Origin: an uncultured bacterium
Lineage (GTDB): Bacteria; Bipolaricaulota; Bipolaricaulia; UBA7950; UBA9294
NCBI GenBank assembly: GCA_903857865.1
Contig: CAIOGO010000009.1
Span: 7,419-71,418 of the forward strand
Length of the DNA stretch: 64,000 bases
Direction: 5' to 3'
Position numbers and translations under genes: made by a program. Shown piece by piece: positions 26,249 through 33,353 of the stretch. Each line of letters starts with the position of its first letter. Positions within the stretch are counted from its first letter, which is position 1. The notes under the pieces were generated by a model. The model was given only the letters and a program-made list of their open reading frames with translations. It was not told the origin of the DNA and ran no database searches.

Positions 26249-29200
26249 CTAGTCCGATGGAAGCACGATGAATGCTCGGCCTTCCGATCTTCCGAACACC
26301 TCTGGAAAGTAGAACTCGCGCGCGATCGCCGGAAGGACCTTGAACTCGCCCGGCTGAACGGCGCGGACCGTGTAGCGGTAGGTGTAGGTGCCGGCCGGGA
26401 GGTAGTCGGCGAACAGCGCCACCTTCTCGTCGCGCAGCTCGCTGCGCGAGTACCAGCGCCACCACCACCAGGGATATCGCATCGAGGTCCCGCCCGACGA
26501 CTCGCGGCGGATGCTCGGCCCGGTTTCCAGAACGCTCGTCGTGTCGAGCGTCGTGTTCACCGCCTCGCAGCCGGCGGGCAGCGGGTCTTCGACCACGACG
26601 TAGTAGAGGTCGTTCGGCGCAATGATCGTCAGGCGCACTTCGTACGTCTCTCCGACCGTCGCTTCTCTCACATCCGGGCATGTCGCGTCGAGATCGCATC
26701 CGCTCGGCGCGTACTGACGCGTGACGATGATCCCGCGCGCCAGGGCGCCCACTTCGTCGGCGGGCAGCTGGAGGTTGAGGTGGGCGGTGTAGTAGAGGAC
26801 GCCGGGGCCTTCCTCGCGGAACACGGTGAGCGCGTGCCGATCGCTCGTCGAGAGCTCGCTGCCTGGGACGCTCACCGTGGCTGAGTCGCGCACCGTCTCC
26901 TGGGTTGCGGTGCCTTCGAGTTTCTGAGCCCCATCCCAAAGGACGCCGAACGCGTAGTCCGCGTCGAGTTCGCCCGTTGCGACCATCCAGTCCGTCAACG
27001 AAACGAGGGCCCACGCGGTCTCCTGCGTCGTCTCCCAGATACCGCTCTTCCGTGCCACCATGAGCCAGCGGACGACGTTCGGAAGGAGCGCGTTCTTGGG
27101 GTCGAGGGCCACGAACGCGTCCAGGATGACGGCCGTCGACCGCGTGTCGGTGTTCATCGCCCACCCGTCGTAGTTCGCCTCCTCCCAGTGCATGCCGGTC
27201 GCGCTCTGGATCGACTCGTTCACCAGGTCGGAGAGGAGCGTGTCGATCTCCGTTCTCGGTCGCCCGAGCCGATCGAGTGCCATGGCGAGGAACGCTTTGC
27301 CATAGTGACTGAGCTTGGCGCGATGGTCGAACAGCTGGTCGGCATACAGGCCGGCAGGATCGTTCCTTCCGGCGAGCGAGAGCACGAAGAGTATCCAGGC
27401 CTGGCGATTCGCCTCTCGGAAGGTTCCGAGATCCTCCTGCGACACGAGCGTCGACTCGAGACGGCGTGTCGCGCGGTCGAGAACCTCGGGCCGCACGAGG
27501 ATGTCCGCCTCCTGGAGGCGGAGGAGAGCGTAGGTGGCGTAGGCTGTGAGATACGGGCTCGATGCCTCGTCGGCCCACCAGCCCCAGCCTCCGTCGCCGT
27601 TCTGGCGGACGTAGAGCTTCTCGAGGCCCTCGAGTACCAGATCGTGGAGGCGGCTGGCGAGATCCTCATCCTCGATGCCGAGGAGCGTCAGGGCGCGGTA
27701 GGTCAGGACGTTTGGCAGGAATCGGCTTACCACCTGTTCCGTGCACTCGTACTCGAAGTGCTCGAGATAGCTGAGCCCTTCGGTCATCGCGGCCGCGAGC
27801 GAGGCGTCGAGACGCACGTCGAGCCGGCTTGTGTCCGGATCGTAGCTCTCTGGCAGGGCAATCGTCTCCGTGCGGCCGCCGGCCTTGCGGAGTTCGCCCG
27901 CCGTGCCGACGATCTCGGGAGCCGTGTAGCGGTGTACCGGGATCGTCCCCTCGGGCCCCGTCGTGAGTCGAGGCCGCGCGGCGTCCGACAGATCGCCGGA
28001 CGTGGCACTCCACGCCACGTCGACGGCCTCCACGTCGAGCACGGTGACCCACCACACGGCCTGACTCTCCGAGCCCGCCAGGACGCGAAGCGTCTGGCCC
28101 ACCGGACCCTCGAGCTCGAGGCCCGCGGAGGCGAGCGTAACGTTGACGTTGAGATTGTCCTGCGTCTGATTGGTCACTGAAGCAGCCAATCGCACGCGGT
28201 CGCCCACGACGAAGAAGCGGGGCGCGACCGGACGCACGAGGAGCGGCTTCGTCACGAGGGTCTCCGTCGTCCCCTCGCCGACCTTCGTATCGGTGGTGAT
28301 GCCGACGGCGCGCACGACCCATGTCGTCAGGTTGTCCGGGAACTTGACGTTCAAGGTGGCGCGGCCGTCGGCGCCGGTGGTCACCGTCGGGTTCCAGTAG
28401 GCGGTGTCGGCGAACGCCTCGCGCAGAGCCACCCCGGCCGGGAGCTGCGCGGCCGCCGAAGACCGCCCCGCGGCCTCGTCGAGGCCCGCCGTCGCCATCA
28501 TCGGCGCGGGCGCCCCGGGCAGGGGGCCACGGCCTTCGGCGGCGACCTTGGTCATGTTCGCTGCGCCCATATCCCGCAGCTGTTCCAGAACGAGGCGCGA
28601 CAAGGAGAGCGTGAGGGAACTCGACGTGCCCACACCGAGACCTCGCGGGCCGTAGAACGTCGAAGCGACGCGGTCCGGCTCGCGCGGGCTCAGGGTGAGA
28701 ATGGCCTTGTCCACCACGTCGAGGGAGAACTGGCCCTGGACGGGCACTCCCTCCGCGTCCGTCACTGTGAGGGTGTAGCTCGCCGTCTGGCCGGGCAGGA
28801 GGCTCTCCTGCGGGCCTTCGAGCGAAACGTGGAGGAGGCGCGGCTCCGGATCGACGGAGAGGGTCACGTACCCCACCTTCATGCTCGCGGTGTCGAGCCC
28901 GCCGGCCGCTCGCGCGGCCGTTCGGCCCTGGACAAGGACCACGCTCACGTAGATGTTCGGGACGTGGTCGTCTGTGATAGGGATCGGTAGGACCGTGCTG
29001 TTCGATGGCAGGTGGAGAACCTGCTGCGACAGCACGCCGCCGCGCTCGACGGTGACGAGAGCCCACTGCTCGCCCGGGTAGGGACTTGGAACGAGGATCT
29101 GAGCCGTCTCCCCGACCTGGTAGGTCGTCTTGTCGCTGATGAGCGTCACCCGGTCGTCGTTGCTGCGGCGCCACGACACGGCCTCCGGCCCACTCACCCA

Positions 29201-32200
29201 AACGAAGACGCTGGTGCGCGTCGTGCGCTCCAACTCATCCAATCCTTCCACGGTGACCTTGTACGACCCGCCGGTCGGCGGCGTGAACGCGAAGGATCCG
29301 TCGCCCCGCTCGTCCGTGACCAGCGATCCGCTGTCGATGTCGATGTCCTCCGTCGTCCACTTCCACGTCCCGCCGCCCGACGCGTCGGACTCGAACGTGT
29401 TCTTCCACTCGCGGCGAACCACCGTGTAGCGTACGGCGCGCCCACTGGCTCGTTCGCCGGCCCAGTCGATCGAGACGGCGTTCAGCGTCATCGCCCGGCC
29501 CGCCTGGCCGATCGTCTGAGCGGCGGCGAGGCCGGCGTAGAACGAGGCTTGGTGGACCACGATCGTGGTGCGTCCGGAGATCGTGGATCCGTCGCGGCCG
29601 TAGGCCGTGGCCTCCACGGTGAGGAGGCGGCTTCCTCGCGCGACTCCGCCTTCGGCCTGCGGATCGCGCGAGGCGATGTCGCTCGGGAGTTCGATCAACA
29701 GAGCGCCCGAGGCGTCAGTTCGGCCGCTGCCATCGAGCACGGGCGTCGGCGGTGTCGGCGTCTGCCACCAGCAGCCGCGGCAAGTCCAGGGGTCGTCGAT
29801 GTCGGAGAACGAGTACTGGCTAAACGCCGAGGGGGAGAACGTGTAGGACGACGATAGGACGCGCCACTCCACGCGCGCGTCGGCCACCGGAGCGCCGAAG
29901 AAGTACGACGCCTGAACCACGGCGTGCGCAGGGTCGCCCTTCGCGATTTCGTCTCGGTCAGCGGCGACGGTGACCTCGAACTCCGGCGCTCGGTACGCGG
30001 CGACCTGGAACGCGTGGGACTCCGACCGGTCTCCGACCTCGACGCTTAGCGTGTAGTCGCCGAGCGCCGCGTCGGCTGCGAGCGCGTGCTCACCGGAGAT
30101 AGCGCCGAACTCGTCCAGGGCAAGCGTCTGCTCGTAGACCATATTCCAGTTTGCATCCCTGATTTGGACGTGCGCCTCGCGGATCGCGGGCAGCGCGTAG
30201 TGAGCGTCCGCTTCGTCGCGCAGGAGGGCGCGGAAGTAGACCGTTTGGCCGGCTCGGTAGATGGGGCGATCGGAGTCGAGGTAGGCGCGGCCGGAAGGAG
30301 GCGTCTCGCTAGTGAAGCCGAACTCCCATGGCGTGATTCCGTCGCTCCATTCCGAACTCGAGAAGGCGAACGGGCTCTTCGCGCTGACCGTGAGGCCACG
30401 CCAGTCGAGCGAGGCGGTGCCGGGGAAGCGCGCCAGACCGCGACTGTCGCTGACGTCGACGTCGACCGTCTCCCCGTCTGCGTTCATGCCCGACAGAATC
30501 AGTCCGGCCACCGGCGCGCCGGTCTCGAGATCCGTGGCCCAGACGAGGGTCTCGGCCTCCGACGTCTTCATGACGAGGTGCGTCGGCGTCGAGATGAGCA
30601 CGTGACGCCCTTGCCAGCGACTCCACTCCACGCCGTCGGCCTGGAGGTCGATGACGTAGATCCCAGGGGCAAGAGGGCCGCCGTCCTCGACGAGGTCGAT
30701 GGGCGTGTAGCCGACCTCGTTCAGCGGGGATGAGACGGCGACGGACCACGTCCGACCGCGGCCACGCGCGGGCGGCGTGAAGTCGTACCAGTCCCTCATC
30801 GCTTCGAAGTACTCGGGGAGGTCCACTTGCGTCAGCGTGAGCGCGAGGCGGCTGGTGTTTCGATACGCGACGACGATGTGCGCCGGCTCGTAGGAGCTGT
30901 AGGTCCCCACGTTCCCGGGAACCTGCAGCCAAGTGGCCGGGTCGAGGGGCGCCGTCGTGAAGCGGACGGCCAGCTCCTGAGTCGTCTTGTTCCCGTAGGG
31001 GTCCTCGATTCCCGGACTGACGCTCACGGTGTACGTTTGGCTCGGCTGCGGAGAGAAGTAGATGACGTAGCGAAGGTCCCACGAACTGAAGTAGCCGTAC
31101 ACGTCCTCCGGTTTTGGGGCGGGCTCGATCGTCACGTGCTTGAGGACGGTGCCTTCGTTGACGGGTGCAGTGAACTCGATGATGAACGGCGAGTAGGGGT
31201 CGGTGTTCGTCTCGCCGGCGCGAGGCGTCGTTCCGAGAATCCGAAGCGTCGGCACAGTTCGGAACCGGAAACGGACGAAGTCGGTCGTGCCCAGTCCACC
31301 CGCCTGTGCGACTACGCCGGGTTCCAGCGTGACGACGTAGTGGCGGTTGAAAGCGAGGGGGGCGGCGGGTTCAAAGACGAGGTCGTTTCCGTCCGCCGAG
31401 AGGGTTCCTTGCACAGGGGAGGTCCAGAGCCCGAAGGCCGAGACCTCTCGCACCGAGAGACGCTTGCGCGCGGACTCCACGCCGATCGGCATGTTGAACG
31501 TCACGCGCAGGGAGTCGATGAGAGAGACCATCTCATCGCCGTCGCGCGGGTTCGTCCACACGACTTCCGGCCGGACGGTCGCGAAACGCCAGACCACGTC
31601 CGAGGCGAGGAGACCGCCGGTCGTGTCGGACAGGCCCGCGCGAACGGTCACGGTGTACTCCGTTCCTCCGAGAAGCGGTTGGCTCGGGGTGAAGACGTAG
31701 ATCGAGGTGTTCAGCCACTCTCCCGTGCCCGCGACATCGGGCTCGAAGGCGAGGGGATCGGGCAGGGGGGTTGTTCCCGGCGCGGACAGGGCCGAGAGCG
31801 CGACGACGGGGCGGTTGAACAGAACCGTGATCGAGCTGTCTGCGGCGATGCCGGTCGCGCCGTCGACCGGGACGACTTGCGTCACGGTGAGGAATCCCAC
31901 CGTGTGTAGCCGCAACGAGAAGGGGTCTGCAAGCGGGATCGCGTTCCGGTCGCGGGCCGTGGCGGCCACGCTCACGGTGTAGACGGCGTCGCGTTCCCAG
32001 GGTTGCGACGGGGTGAATTGGATCGTCGCGTCCGACGTCCACTCCCAGCGTCCAGCCGTCTCGGGCGCGATCCCGACGGCGTCCTCAAGCGAGGCGCGGT
32101 CCATCGGTCGGTCGAAGACAAGTCGGATCGCTCCATTGACAGCCAGTTCTTCGCCGCGCGTCGGCGAGGTCTCCACGACTCGTGGAGGAGCGATCTCCGC

Positions 32201-32308
32201 GTTCGTCGCGGAGGATGCAGCGCCCCACGTCGGACACGCTGCCGCAAAGGCAGACACTCCCAAGAGAACGAGGACTCTCAACGCCCTTTCCGCCGACCTC
32301 ATATTCAT
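26249..32308 (-). CDS. bacterial alpha-2-macroglobulin family protein with thioester motif
   Basis: 2019 aa. Signal peptide 1-25 ends in F-A-A-A-C, a possible (weak) lipobox. Four Ig-like Big_5 domains (about 40-480) each contain the V-x-F-x-x-P pattern, followed by a chain of macroglobulin (MG) domains. The thioester site is C-T-E-Q (Cys1522, Glu1524, Gln1525), followed by the alpha/alpha toroid thioester domain with repeated Trp-Gly-W-W and Y-A-T-Y-A-L-L motifs. C-terminal MG/receptor-like domains close the protein. Such proteins trap proteases in the periplasm through the reactive thioester. The usual partner, a PBP1C penicillin-binding protein, is not adjacent here. Confidence 0.92.
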   Translation of the reverse strand: MNMRSAERALRVLVLLGVSAFAAACPTWGAASSATNAEIAPPRVVETSPTRGEELAVNGAIRLVFDRPMDRASLEDAVGIAPETAGRWEWTSDATIQFTPSQPWERDAVYTVSVAATARDRNAIPLADPFSLRLHTVGFLTVTQVVPVDGATGIAADSSITVLFNRPVVALSALSAPGTTPLPDPLAFEPDVAGTGEWLNTSIYVFTPSQPLLGGTEYTVTVRAGLSDTTGGLLASDVVWRFATVRPEVVWTNPRDGDEMVSLIDSLRVTFNMPIGVESARKRLSVREVSAFGLWTSPVQGTLSADGNDLVFEPAAPLAFNRHYVVTLEPGVVAQAGGLGTTDFVRFRFRTVPTLRILGTTPRAGETNTDPYSPFIIEFTAPVNEGTVLKHVTIEPAPKPEDVYGYFSSWDLRYVIYFSPQPSQTYTVSVSPGIEDPYGNKTTQELAVRFTTAPLDPATWLQVPGNVGTYSSYEPAHIVVAYRNTSRLALTLTQVDLPEYFEAMRDWYDFTPPARGRGRTWSVAVSSPLNEVGYTPIDLVEDGGPLAPGIYVIDLQADGVEWSRWQGRHVLISTPTHLVMKTSEAETLVWATDLETGAPVAGLILSGMNADGETVDVDVSDSRGLARFPGTASLDWRGLTVSAKSPFAFSSSEWSDGITPWEFGFTSETPPSGRAYLDSDRPIYRAGQTVYFRALLRDEADAHYALPAIREAHVQIRDANWNMVYEQTLALDEFGAISGEHALAADAALGDYTLSVEVGDRSESHAFQVAAYRAPEFEVTVAADRDEIAKGDPAHAVVQASYFFGAPVADARVEWRVLSSSYTFSPSAFSQYSFSDIDDPWTCRGCWWQTPTPPTPVLDGSGRTDASGALLIELPSDIASRDPQAEGGVARGSRLLTVEATAYGRDGSTISGRTTIVVHQASFYAGLAAAQTIGQAGRAMTLNAVSIDWAGERASGRAVRYTVVRREWKNTFESDASGGGTWKWTTEDIDIDSGSLVTDERGDGSFAFTPPTGGSYKVTVEGLDELERTTRTSVFVWVSGPEAVSWRRSNDDRVTLISDKTTYQVGETAQILVPSPYPGEQWALVTVERGGVLSQQVLHLPSNSTVLPIPITDDHVPNIYVSVVLVQGRTAARAAGGLDTASMKVGYVTLSVDPEPRLLHVSLEGPQESLLPGQTASYTLTVTDAEGVPVQGQFSLDVVDKAILTLSPREPDRVASTFYGPRGLGVGTSSSLTLSLSRLVLEQLRDMGAANMTKVAAEGRGPLPGAPAPMMATAGLDEAAGRSSAAAQLPAGVALREAFADTAYWNPTVTTGADGRATLNVKFPDNLTTWVVRAVGITTDTKVGEGTTETLVTKPLLVRPVAPRFFVVGDRVRLAASVTNQTQDNLNVNVTLASAGLELEGPVGQTLRVLAGSESQAVWWVTVLDVEAVDVAWSATSGDLSDAARPRLTTGPEGTIPVHRYTAPEIVGTAGELRKAGGRTETIALPESYDPDTSRLDVRLDASLAAAMTEGLSYLEHFEYECTEQVVSRFLPNVLTYRALTLLGIEDEDLASRLHDLVLEGLEKLYVRQNGDGGWGWWADEASSPYLTAYATYALLRLQEADILVRPEVLDRATRRLESTLVSQEDLGTFREANRQAWILFVLSLAGRNDPAGLYADQLFDHRAKLSHYGKAFLAMALDRLGRPRTEIDTLLSDLVNESIQSATGMHWEEANYDGWAMNTDTRSTAVILDAFVALDPKNALLPNVVRWLMVARKSGIWETTQETAWALVSLTDWMVATGELDADYAFGVLWDGAQKLEGTATQETVRDSATVSVPGSELSTSDRHALTVFREEGPGVLYYTAHLNLQLPADEVGALARGIIVTRQYAPSGCDLDATCPDVREATVGETYEVRLTIIAPNDLYYVVVEDPLPAGCEAVNTTLDTTSVLETGPSIRRESSGGTSMRYPWWWWRWYSRSELRDEKVALFADYLPAGTYTYRYTVRAVQPGEFKVLPAIAREFYFPEVFGRSEGRAFIVLPSD

Positions 32309-32634
32309 GACTGCCCCCTAGTGGTTGTGTCGCGTCGTATGGTTCGTGCCACTGTGGTCCATTCCCGTGACCCCGTCAACCCGCCTGTAGCATACCCAAC
32401 ACCGCCGCCCCCTCCGTCGTTTCGTTCCCGCCGAGGCAGAGAGACTCGAGGGTGCGGGGAGGCGCAAGAGCAGCAGCCGGCGGATGTCTAACAGTAGGGT
32501 GTGGGTGGCACAATCAGGTCGTTGTTCCTTGACAAGTGAACAGAGACAGACCGAAACCCGCAGTGCGGGTGTTTGAACCTCGATCTGAAGATTGCGGCGG
32601 GTGGTCCGCCGCAATGCACAAGTCCTCATTCGAA
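32309..32634. other. 326-bp divergent intergenic region
   Basis: Holds the leader of the macroglobulin gene (G-rich ribosome site at 32314-32321) and, on the plus strand, the upstream region of the riboswitch transcript. A TTGACA at 32529-32534 is a good -35, but I find no matching -10 at the normal spacing. No coding sequence was seen. Confidence 0.5.
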
Positions 32635-32713
32635 GTATCTACCAAAGGCAAACCAACCGAAAGGATGGGACGCAAAGCTACGGACCTTCTAGGCAGCTCT
32701 GCGTCGGCTCTCA
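32635..32713 (+). promoter_or_regulatory. cyclic-di-GMP-I (GEMM-I) riboswitch aptamer 1
   Basis: Contains the two universal GEMM-I blocks, GGCAAACC (32647-32654) and GGGACGCAAAGC (32667-32678), joined by a hairpin CCAACC / GGATGG with a GAAA tetraloop (32659-32662). The bases before CAAACC give G at the ligand-contact position that selects c-di-GMP. The 3' half after CGGACC diverges from the usual tetraloop-receptor helix, so this copy may be weaker. It is followed 21 bases later by a second aptamer. Confidence 0.82.
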
Positions 32714-32730
32714 AGGCCGGCGCGAACTCT

Positions 32731-32818
32731 TGAGAAACGCAAACCAGGGGAAACCCTGGGACGCAAAGCCACGGACCCTCAGGCGACCGAAAGGCCGCCG
32801 GGTAGCCGGGTTGCCGCA
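32731..32818 (+). promoter_or_regulatory. cyclic-di-GMP-I (GEMM-I) riboswitch aptamer 2
   Basis: A complete GEMM-I aptamer: CGCAAACC (32738-32745), a perfect CCAGGG-GAAA-CCCTGG hairpin (32744-32759), GGGACGCAAAGCCACGGA (32758-32775), a second stem with a GAAA loop, then the tetraloop-receptor side GGTAGCCGGGTTGCC (32801-32815). The base two before CAAACC's first C is C rather than the usual G, a possible change in ligand preference. It leads directly into the Shine-Dalgarno-masking helix. Confidence 0.88.
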
Positions 32819-32821
32819 GCG

Positions 32822-32873
32822 CCTAATGGTGGCCGAGCCGCTAGATGCGCTCGAACAAACAACCATTAGGAGG
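32822..32873 (+). promoter_or_regulatory. riboswitch expression platform: helix masking the ribosome binding site
   Basis: CCTAATGGT (32822-32830) is perfectly complementary to ACCATTAGG (32862-32870). The latter contains the first half of the Shine-Dalgarno sequence AGGAGG (32868-32873), nine bases before the ATG at 32883. Formation of this 9-bp helix would block translation. Its 5' arm begins just after aptamer 2, so ligand binding can plausibly switch it. Translational control is inferred. Confidence 0.78.
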
Positions 32874-32882
32874 TGCTTTGTA

Positions 32883-33353
32883 ATGAGGATGCTTAAGGTA
32901 GTGGGTATGGCGATGTTGGTGGCGGCGATGGTCGTTGGCATGGCAGCGGTTTCGTTCGCGGCGTCTTCGGCAGTGTCCGCGAACGCCTCGTTCTCGATTC
33001 CGTCGTGGATCTCTCTCTCCATCGTCGGCAACGGCGACGTGAGCTTCGCGAGCATCACCGGCCCTGGGACGTACAACGGCTCGAACGGCACCCAGCTTCG
33101 CGTGCTGAGCACGGCGAACTGGTCACTGTCGAACACGATTCTCTGGGCGAGCCCGAGCTCGAAGATGCCTGTTGGCGCGAGCCAGGCCACGATTGACGCG
33201 AGTCTCCAGCGGACGTTCGACAAGACGTCCGGGGCCTGGGGTAGTCAGACGGTGAACGTCTCCTACAGGCTCGTCCTCACGAGCGACGACCTGGCGACCC
33301 TGCCGCAGGGCGACTACAGCTTGGTCGTCCAGTACACGGCGACGACGAACTAG
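32883..33353 (+). CDS. c-di-GMP-riboswitch-controlled small secreted protein
   Basis: 156 aa from the ATG at 32883, nine bases after AGGAGG. A Sec signal peptide (about 1-26, cleavage after S-F-A-A) is followed by a Ser/Thr/Asn-rich beta-strand domain without cysteines, resembling small pilus-like or matrix proteins in composition. Its tandem c-di-GMP aptamers point to a role in adhesion, biofilm matrix or a surface structure. It is monocistronic, with a terminator at 33392-33411. I do not recognise a named family. Confidence 0.8.
   Translation: MRMLKVVGMAMLVAAMVVGMAAVSFAASSAVSANASFSIPSWISLSIVGNGDVSFASITGPGTYNGSNGTQLRVLSTANWSLSNTILWASPSSKMPVGASQATIDASLQRTFDKTSGAWGSQTVNVSYRLVLTSDDLATLPQGDYSLVVQYTATTN

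Follow-up and report, generated by a model that had tools for sequence, protein, structure and literature searches.

A c-di-GMP-I aptamer nested within another, with one predicted translational platform, upstream of a small secreted protein in Bipolaricaulota

Riboswitch aptamers of the c-di-GMP-I class (RF01051) contact their ligand through G20, A47 and C92 (PMC3764141, PMC4744006), and mutation of G20 in Vc2 lowers binding ~30,000-fold (PMC4744006). Several of these aptamers may occur in one 5' leader, as in the Bc3-5 triple tandem (PMC4759541; PMC9481103). A 2022 survey of tandem riboswitches counted 347 c-di-GMP-I doublets, regarded as pseudo-cooperative, with no nested case, and mentions c-AMP-GMP-sensing c-di-GMP-I variants without giving the letter at position 20 (PMC9481103). 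Two interacting aptamers on one platform are known from tandem glycine aptamers and the guanine/PRPP riboswitch, and ghost aptamers and altered cores are known among glycine riboswitches (PMC9481103). In the HMP-PP (thiS) riboswitch, a ligand-binding domain is embedded in another functional structure, a terminator stem (PMC7266159).

The leader RNA described here belongs to the c-di-GMP-I class but has a new architecture. Like RF01051, both of its aptamers have the P2/P3 core, the GNRA tetraloop, A47 and C92, and the outer one also has G20; they differ from it in that one aptamer lies in the P3 arm of the other, a single platform is shared, and position 20 of the inner aptamer is a C. Known c-di-GMP-I tandems, in contrast, are described as serial, with a platform for each aptamer. 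The glycine and guanine/PRPP aptamers are adjacent rather than one within the other, and have other ligands and folds, whereas the HMP-PP domain resides within a terminator stem and not within a second aptamer. No natural same-class aptamer within an aptamer was found in the riboswitch literature searched (subscription papers and preprints aside), and a full-text literature search for 'nested riboswitch' returned no paper.

The window, the whole 64,000-nucleotide stretch of DNA that was analysed, is part of contig 9 of a 2.24-Mb draft genome from Bipolaricaulota. Infernal cmscan returned two Rfam matches above the gathering cutoff in the whole window, both at this leader (Table 1), in agreement with the original prediction of two c-di-GMP-I aptamers. 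The inner aptamer also lies above the RF01051 cutoff, and no other c-di-GMP-I match in the genome scores higher with that model; it is labelled RF03167 (c-di-GMP-I-GGC) because of clan competition. Assignment to this GGC variant was rejected, as RF03167 calls for G in place of A47 (CGCGAA in its consensus), whereas the inner aptamer has A47 (CGCAAA), with C at position 20.

Table 1. Features of the leader and the gene downstream (positions in the window)
Feature	Position	Strand	Remarks
Promoter-like block TGTCTAA-N16-GCACAAT	32485-32514	+	conserved; precedes nested loci of several genera; putative promoter function
Leader hairpin TTGCGGCGG-GTGGT-CCGCCGCAA	32592-32614	+	conserved, upstream of the aptamers
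OFF helix B, 5' arm AAGUAUCU	32633-32640	+	shares bases with outer P1 5' strand; partner 32871-32878
Outer P1 5' strand GUAUCUA	32635-32641	+	pairs with 32842-32848
Outer aptamer as placed by cmscan	32637-32715	+	RF01051, 41.2 bits (cutoff 35)
Outer aptamer 5' half: J1/2, P2 with GAAA loop, P3 5' strand	32642-32686	+	cmscan
Outer P3 5' strand GCU-A-CGG-ACC	32677-32686	+	
P3 extension, 5' strand UAGGC	32690-32694	+	pairs with 32821-32825; covaries, 31 loci
Inner c-di-GMP-I aptamer	32729-32819	+	RF03167, 64.0 bits (cutoff 59); RF01051, 67.1 bits
P3 extension, 3' strand GCCUA	32821-32825	+	
SD-masking helix A, 5' arm CCUAAUGGU (CCTAATGGT)	32822-32830	+	same strand as outer P3/P3 extension
Outer P3 3' strand GGU-GG-CCG-AGC and J3/1	32828-32841	+	C92 = 32841
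Outer P1 3' strand UAGAUGC	32842-32848	+	
SD-masking helix A, 3' arm ACCAUUAGG (ACCATTAGG)	32862-32870	+	
Shine-Dalgarno (SD) AGGAGG	32868-32873	+	direct reading; 9 nt before ATG at 32883
OFF helix B, 3' arm AGGUGCUU	32871-32878	+	3' part of SD and spacer
Gene for the 156-aa secreted protein with a predicted pilin-like beta-sandwich	32883-33353	+	signal peptide

The 3' half that cmscan assigns to the outer aptamer is a chance fit. The missing P3 and P1 3' strands are found downstream of the inner aptamer, at 32821-32848, where the sequence reads GCCUAAUGGUGGCCGAGCCGCUAGAUGC. Within it, GGU-GG-CCG-AGC pairs with the outer P3 5' strand, with a G before CCG and C92 in place, and P1 is formed, as expected, by UAGAUGC and the GUAUCUA directly upstream of the outer aptamer. 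The inner aptamer is thus inserted in the P3 arm of an outer aptamer that spans 32635-32848 and surrounds it with P1, P3 and the P3 extension, with outer G20 at 32647, A47 at 32674 and C92 at 32841 when the downstream 3' half is used. The outer match scores low because its true 3' half is elsewhere than the model placed it, and it exceeds the RF01051 cutoff even with the wrong one.

Nested and serial placements were scored by one rule (P3 pairs, G83, C92 and P1 length). The nested placement in the window scores 15, a value reached by 2 of 2000 dinucleotide shuffles, versus 10 for the serial placement, reached by 522 of 2000, so the earlier description of the aptamers as lying in series does not hold. 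A serial model in which each aptamer closes on itself and has its own platform also failed on the single SD helix. That the leader is nonetheless a pseudo-cooperative tandem of two independent serial aptamers is highly improbable: cmscan does report two separate full-length matches in order, and such c-di-GMP-I arrangements are common (the 347 doublets of PMC9481103), but the serial 3' half of the outer aptamer is no better than those of shuffles, with a P1 of ≤3 bp, covariation in five families supports the nested 3' half, the downstream 3' strand also serves the un-nested paralogues, and a single expression platform is seen.

The 156-aa protein has homologues in 10 of the 60 relatives searched, and the leaders of these were then read out. 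Ten of these leaders, that of the window included, have the nested arrangement, while two, upstream of a paralogue in the same genome (C20:204517-204975; protein 68% identical to that of the window) and at G017:C30, have the outer aptamer alone. In both, a plain hairpin takes the place of the inner aptamer and the leader ends in an identical CCGAGCCGCUAGAUGC strand; the aptamer of the paralogue (205004-205109) scores 57.5 bits with RF01051. Both leaders serve as natural controls without nesting.

Close tandem aptamers were sought by pattern in GTDB genomes. Of the 94 stretches obtained, 19 loci score 15-16 as nested and 7-11 as serial. Those with a title are from Bipolaricaulota, except one labelled Neomarinimicrobiota and some named only 'uncultured bacterium'. 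By the same scoring, the Fermentibacterota tandems that received a call are serial, and many Firmicutes tandems received none. A further scan, matching the outer 3' strand in 100 genomes of the phylum, added members from four more families. The complete nested loci analysed number 31, and by sequence comparison the layout is conserved in 26 Bipolaricaulota genomes from five families of this uncultured phylum. Across the phylum the two-aptamer leader is kept together with the same small secreted protein family, which supports the earlier proposal that an undescribed secreted protein is tied to a c-di-GMP-I riboswitch and an SD-masking helix.

Other arrangements were seen in the course of these scans. 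In one genus, two genomes (L102 and L135) carry a third c-di-GMP-I aptamer in series before the nested pair. Several serial tandems, mostly from Fermentibacterota (L088, L114, L128, L145, L150 and others), are flanked by long complementary strands, such as GGCGGUAGAG/UUCUACCGUC and GAGCACC/GGUGCUC, that would enclose both aptamers. Close tandems from Lachnospiraceae and Oscillospiraceae (such as L092, L109 and L121) combine an aptamer that has G at position 20 with one that has A there, a hint of mixed c-di-GMP/cGAMP sensing.

When 21 loci were aligned with the inner aptamer excised, outer P1, P2 and P3 had standard pairs in 98.8% of cells, compared to 28-38% with slid partners, and U-A/C-G double changes were present in outer P1. 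For 30-31 loci, each strand was also paired with its own partner and, in 1000 re-pairings, with the partners of other loci; as re-pairing preserves composition and not relatedness, the resulting figures serve as guides rather than exact probabilities. The mean energy was –10.1 kcal/mol for the P3 extension (–7.6 re-paired, 0/1000 as good), –12.1 for outer P1 (–10.5, 1/1000), –12.1 for SD helix A (–10.3, 0/1000) and –12.6 for helix B (–12.1, 6/1000). Support for helix B is weaker because only one of its sides varies. The P3 extension, which directly flanks the inner aptamer, occurs as UAGGC/GCCUA, UAGAC/GUCUA, UAAGC/GCUUA and UAAGU/ACUUA, and also as CUAAGAG/CUCUUAG, GGCUGC/GCAGCC and GGUG/CACC, and its compensatory changes recur across families.

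The 9-bp helix that had been described over the AGGAGG is perfect, 32822-32830 pairing fully with 32862-32870 (helix A), and its 3' arm overlaps the start of the AGGAGG. The original prediction missed the competition between this helix and the outer aptamer for a single strand. Helices A and B together are paired in 97.1% of cells, compared to 41-55% when slid; one relative (L197) is without the SD helix. A single expression platform is seen for both aptamers, and the outer aptamer and the SD-burying fold are mutually exclusive because they use the same strands. A conserved anti-SD helix that excludes the aptamer fold is expected of a translational (SD-sequestering) ON riboswitch, and such a helix is present here.

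In ligand-free MFE folds the outer P1 5' strand lies on the SD region in 22 of 23 RNAs, and the outer P3 5' strand lies on the GCCG of the inner aptamer, which contains its C92, in 15 of 21 nested RNAs; this capture of the outer P3 5' strand is a prediction only. A constrained ON fold frees more of the SD in the window RNA and little of it in several relatives. The ON fold was calculated with nearest-neighbour energies to lie 2.7-12.8 kcal/mol above the OFF fold in nested RNAs (11.4 in the window RNA) and ~2 kcal/mol above it in the two single-aptamer RNAs; since these energies take no account of tertiary contacts, of ligand or of the order of folding during transcription, their direction alone was used.

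We consider it probable that the leader is a double riboswitch of the c-di-GMP-I class, nested and with a single translational platform, predicted to act as an ON switch, and we infer ligand binding and switching from the sequence. In the absence of the outer aptamer, CCUAAUGGU would fold onto ACCAUUAGG and the outer P1 5' strand onto AGGUGCUU, burying the SD; formation of the outer aptamer would consume both anti-SD strands and free it. Binding of c-di-GMP to the outer aptamer would stabilize the ON fold and allow the secreted protein to be translated. Folding of, or binding to, the inner aptamer would help close the outer P3, because the predicted ligand-free folds usually trap the outer P3 5' strand on the inner GCCG, and this capture would be a physical reason for the coupling. 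As outer strands are shared with the OFF helices and the outer P3 5' strand is predicted to be captured by the inner GCCG, ligand on either aptamer is predicted to favour the ON fold, and the two aptamers would act cooperatively or in an AND-like manner. The usual argument for a sharper response, the possibility raised earlier, concerns independent tandems and is not directly applicable to a nested pair with one shared platform.

A reversed switch, turned off by c-di-GMP, or one acting on transcription or RNA stability instead of translation, is quite unlikely. Similar aptamers of cyclic-dinucleotide riboswitches are known in ON as well as in OFF switches (PMC9262584), but here the aptamer and the SD-masking helices share strands, so that ligand should free the SD, and a terminator scan of the + strand found no intrinsic terminator-like site between the aptamer and the ATG.

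In none of the 31 loci does either aptamer depart from A47, or the outer aptamer from C92. Position 20 (outer/inner) is G/G in 22 loci, A/G in six and G/C in three, the window belonging to the last group: its inner aptamer has C at position 20 (32738), with A47 at 32765 and C92 at 32814. It thus lacks the G at position 20 by which c-di-GMP recognition is judged, a point that had escaped the original prediction. The same C is found in the sister species G003 (complete) and G001 (locus cut by the contig end), and in a distant family (L208). No described ligand for a binding site with C20 was found in the searched literature. Given this substitution, the inner aptamer of the window's genus may be a scaffold ('ghost') or a retuned binder of a different ligand. 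It is apparently still under selection, since its core is otherwise intact and sister species differ by a compensatory A-U/G-C change in its P3.

It is a serious possibility, if somewhat short of an even chance, that the nested fold is real and that in this genus the outer aptamer alone senses ligand, the inner one being a ghost that shapes the P3 arm. In line with this, the inner aptamer has C instead of G20 in three species of the genus, and ghosts are known beside singlet glycine aptamers (PMC9481103). Against it, the inner aptamer is otherwise the best RF01051 match in the genome and keeps A47 and C92, the compensatory change in P3 points to continued selection, and G20 is present in most other genera.

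The six loci with outer A20 and inner G20 comprise five in one genus and one in another family. Variant c-di-GMP-I classes were reportedly first described by Weinberg in 2017, and we take A at position 20 to be the letter tied to c-AMP-GMP (cGAMP-type) sensing. A two-input gate, in which inner and outer aptamers would sense different cyclic dinucleotides and require, AND-like, two second messengers for expression of the secreted filament-like protein, is a speculative reading that we hold to be rather unlikely. With seven strong and two partial GGDEF domains encoded in its genome, the organism can probably make c-di-GMP.

Upstream of the aptamers, the promoter-like block matches with 0 mismatches in the window, where 0.06 matches are expected by chance; a sigma-70 scan of the + strand found no promoter. 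Many nested loci across families have in common the block consensus TGTCTAA-N16-GCAYAAT followed by CCTTGACAAGTGAAC (32485-32541 in the window), possibly one common promoter type for this regulon. The leader hairpin occurs in most loci of the window's own family, its stem varying in sequence with pairing kept and its loop being GUGGU. Divergent from the riboswitch gene, on the – strand (26249-32308), lies a gene for a 2019-aa bacterial alpha-2-macroglobulin with Big_5 domains.

The 156-aa protein has a signal peptide and no family was found for it in Pfam or NCBIfam, as originally stated. An N-terminally extended product of the 253-aa open frame at 32592-33353 was rejected, as this frame crosses the aptamers and the signal peptide starts directly after the SD. 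The protein family comprises 24 members that align over their length, 22 of them from nested loci. The structural model is a beta-sandwich (pLDDT 86) with a low-confidence N-terminus (residues 1-21). Among solved structures it comes closest to TLP-1a/b, pilins of the P, type 1 and Csu kinds and TasA, but also to unrelated PapD-like and MSP domains, all with Z < 8; the best Z is 7.5-7.9 and the Foldseek E-value 0.012. TLP entries are the sole, weak matches of the family's sequence profile (E 0.15 and 0.59). As a small secreted protein with a predicted Ig-like beta-sandwich, it may belong with chaperone-usher pilins, the TasA fibre and TLP-1 (PDB 9ikj/9ikk), to which it compares at Z ≤ 7.5 and a sequence E-value of 0.15. 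We regard a part in filaments or adhesion as a reasonable conjecture, and the matrix or adhesion factor envisaged earlier is plausible in view of the pilin-like predicted fold, though at a best Z of 7.5-7.9.

Five larger secreted proteins (~280-310 aa; L031, L029, L032, L033 and L030) have a C-terminal domain homologous to the 156-aa protein and no aptamer motif within 600 bases before the match. The other c-di-GMP-I loci of the genome are mostly upstream of large secreted proteins too (signal peptides judged by eye). At L005 (G000:C4), a c-di-GMP-I aptamer (2002-2099) precedes a 109-aa protein that we take to resemble an MshEN/GSPII N-terminal domain and that may itself bind c-di-GMP.

Nesting would be a new means of linking the binding of two ligands to a single SD. 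In scans with covariance models, a nested pair can be mistaken for a serial tandem whose first member is weak, and the single-aptamer paralogue in the same genome provides a natural control for whether nesting gives true cooperativity. For the Bipolaricaulota, c-di-GMP control offers a functional handle on a widespread family of secreted proteins.
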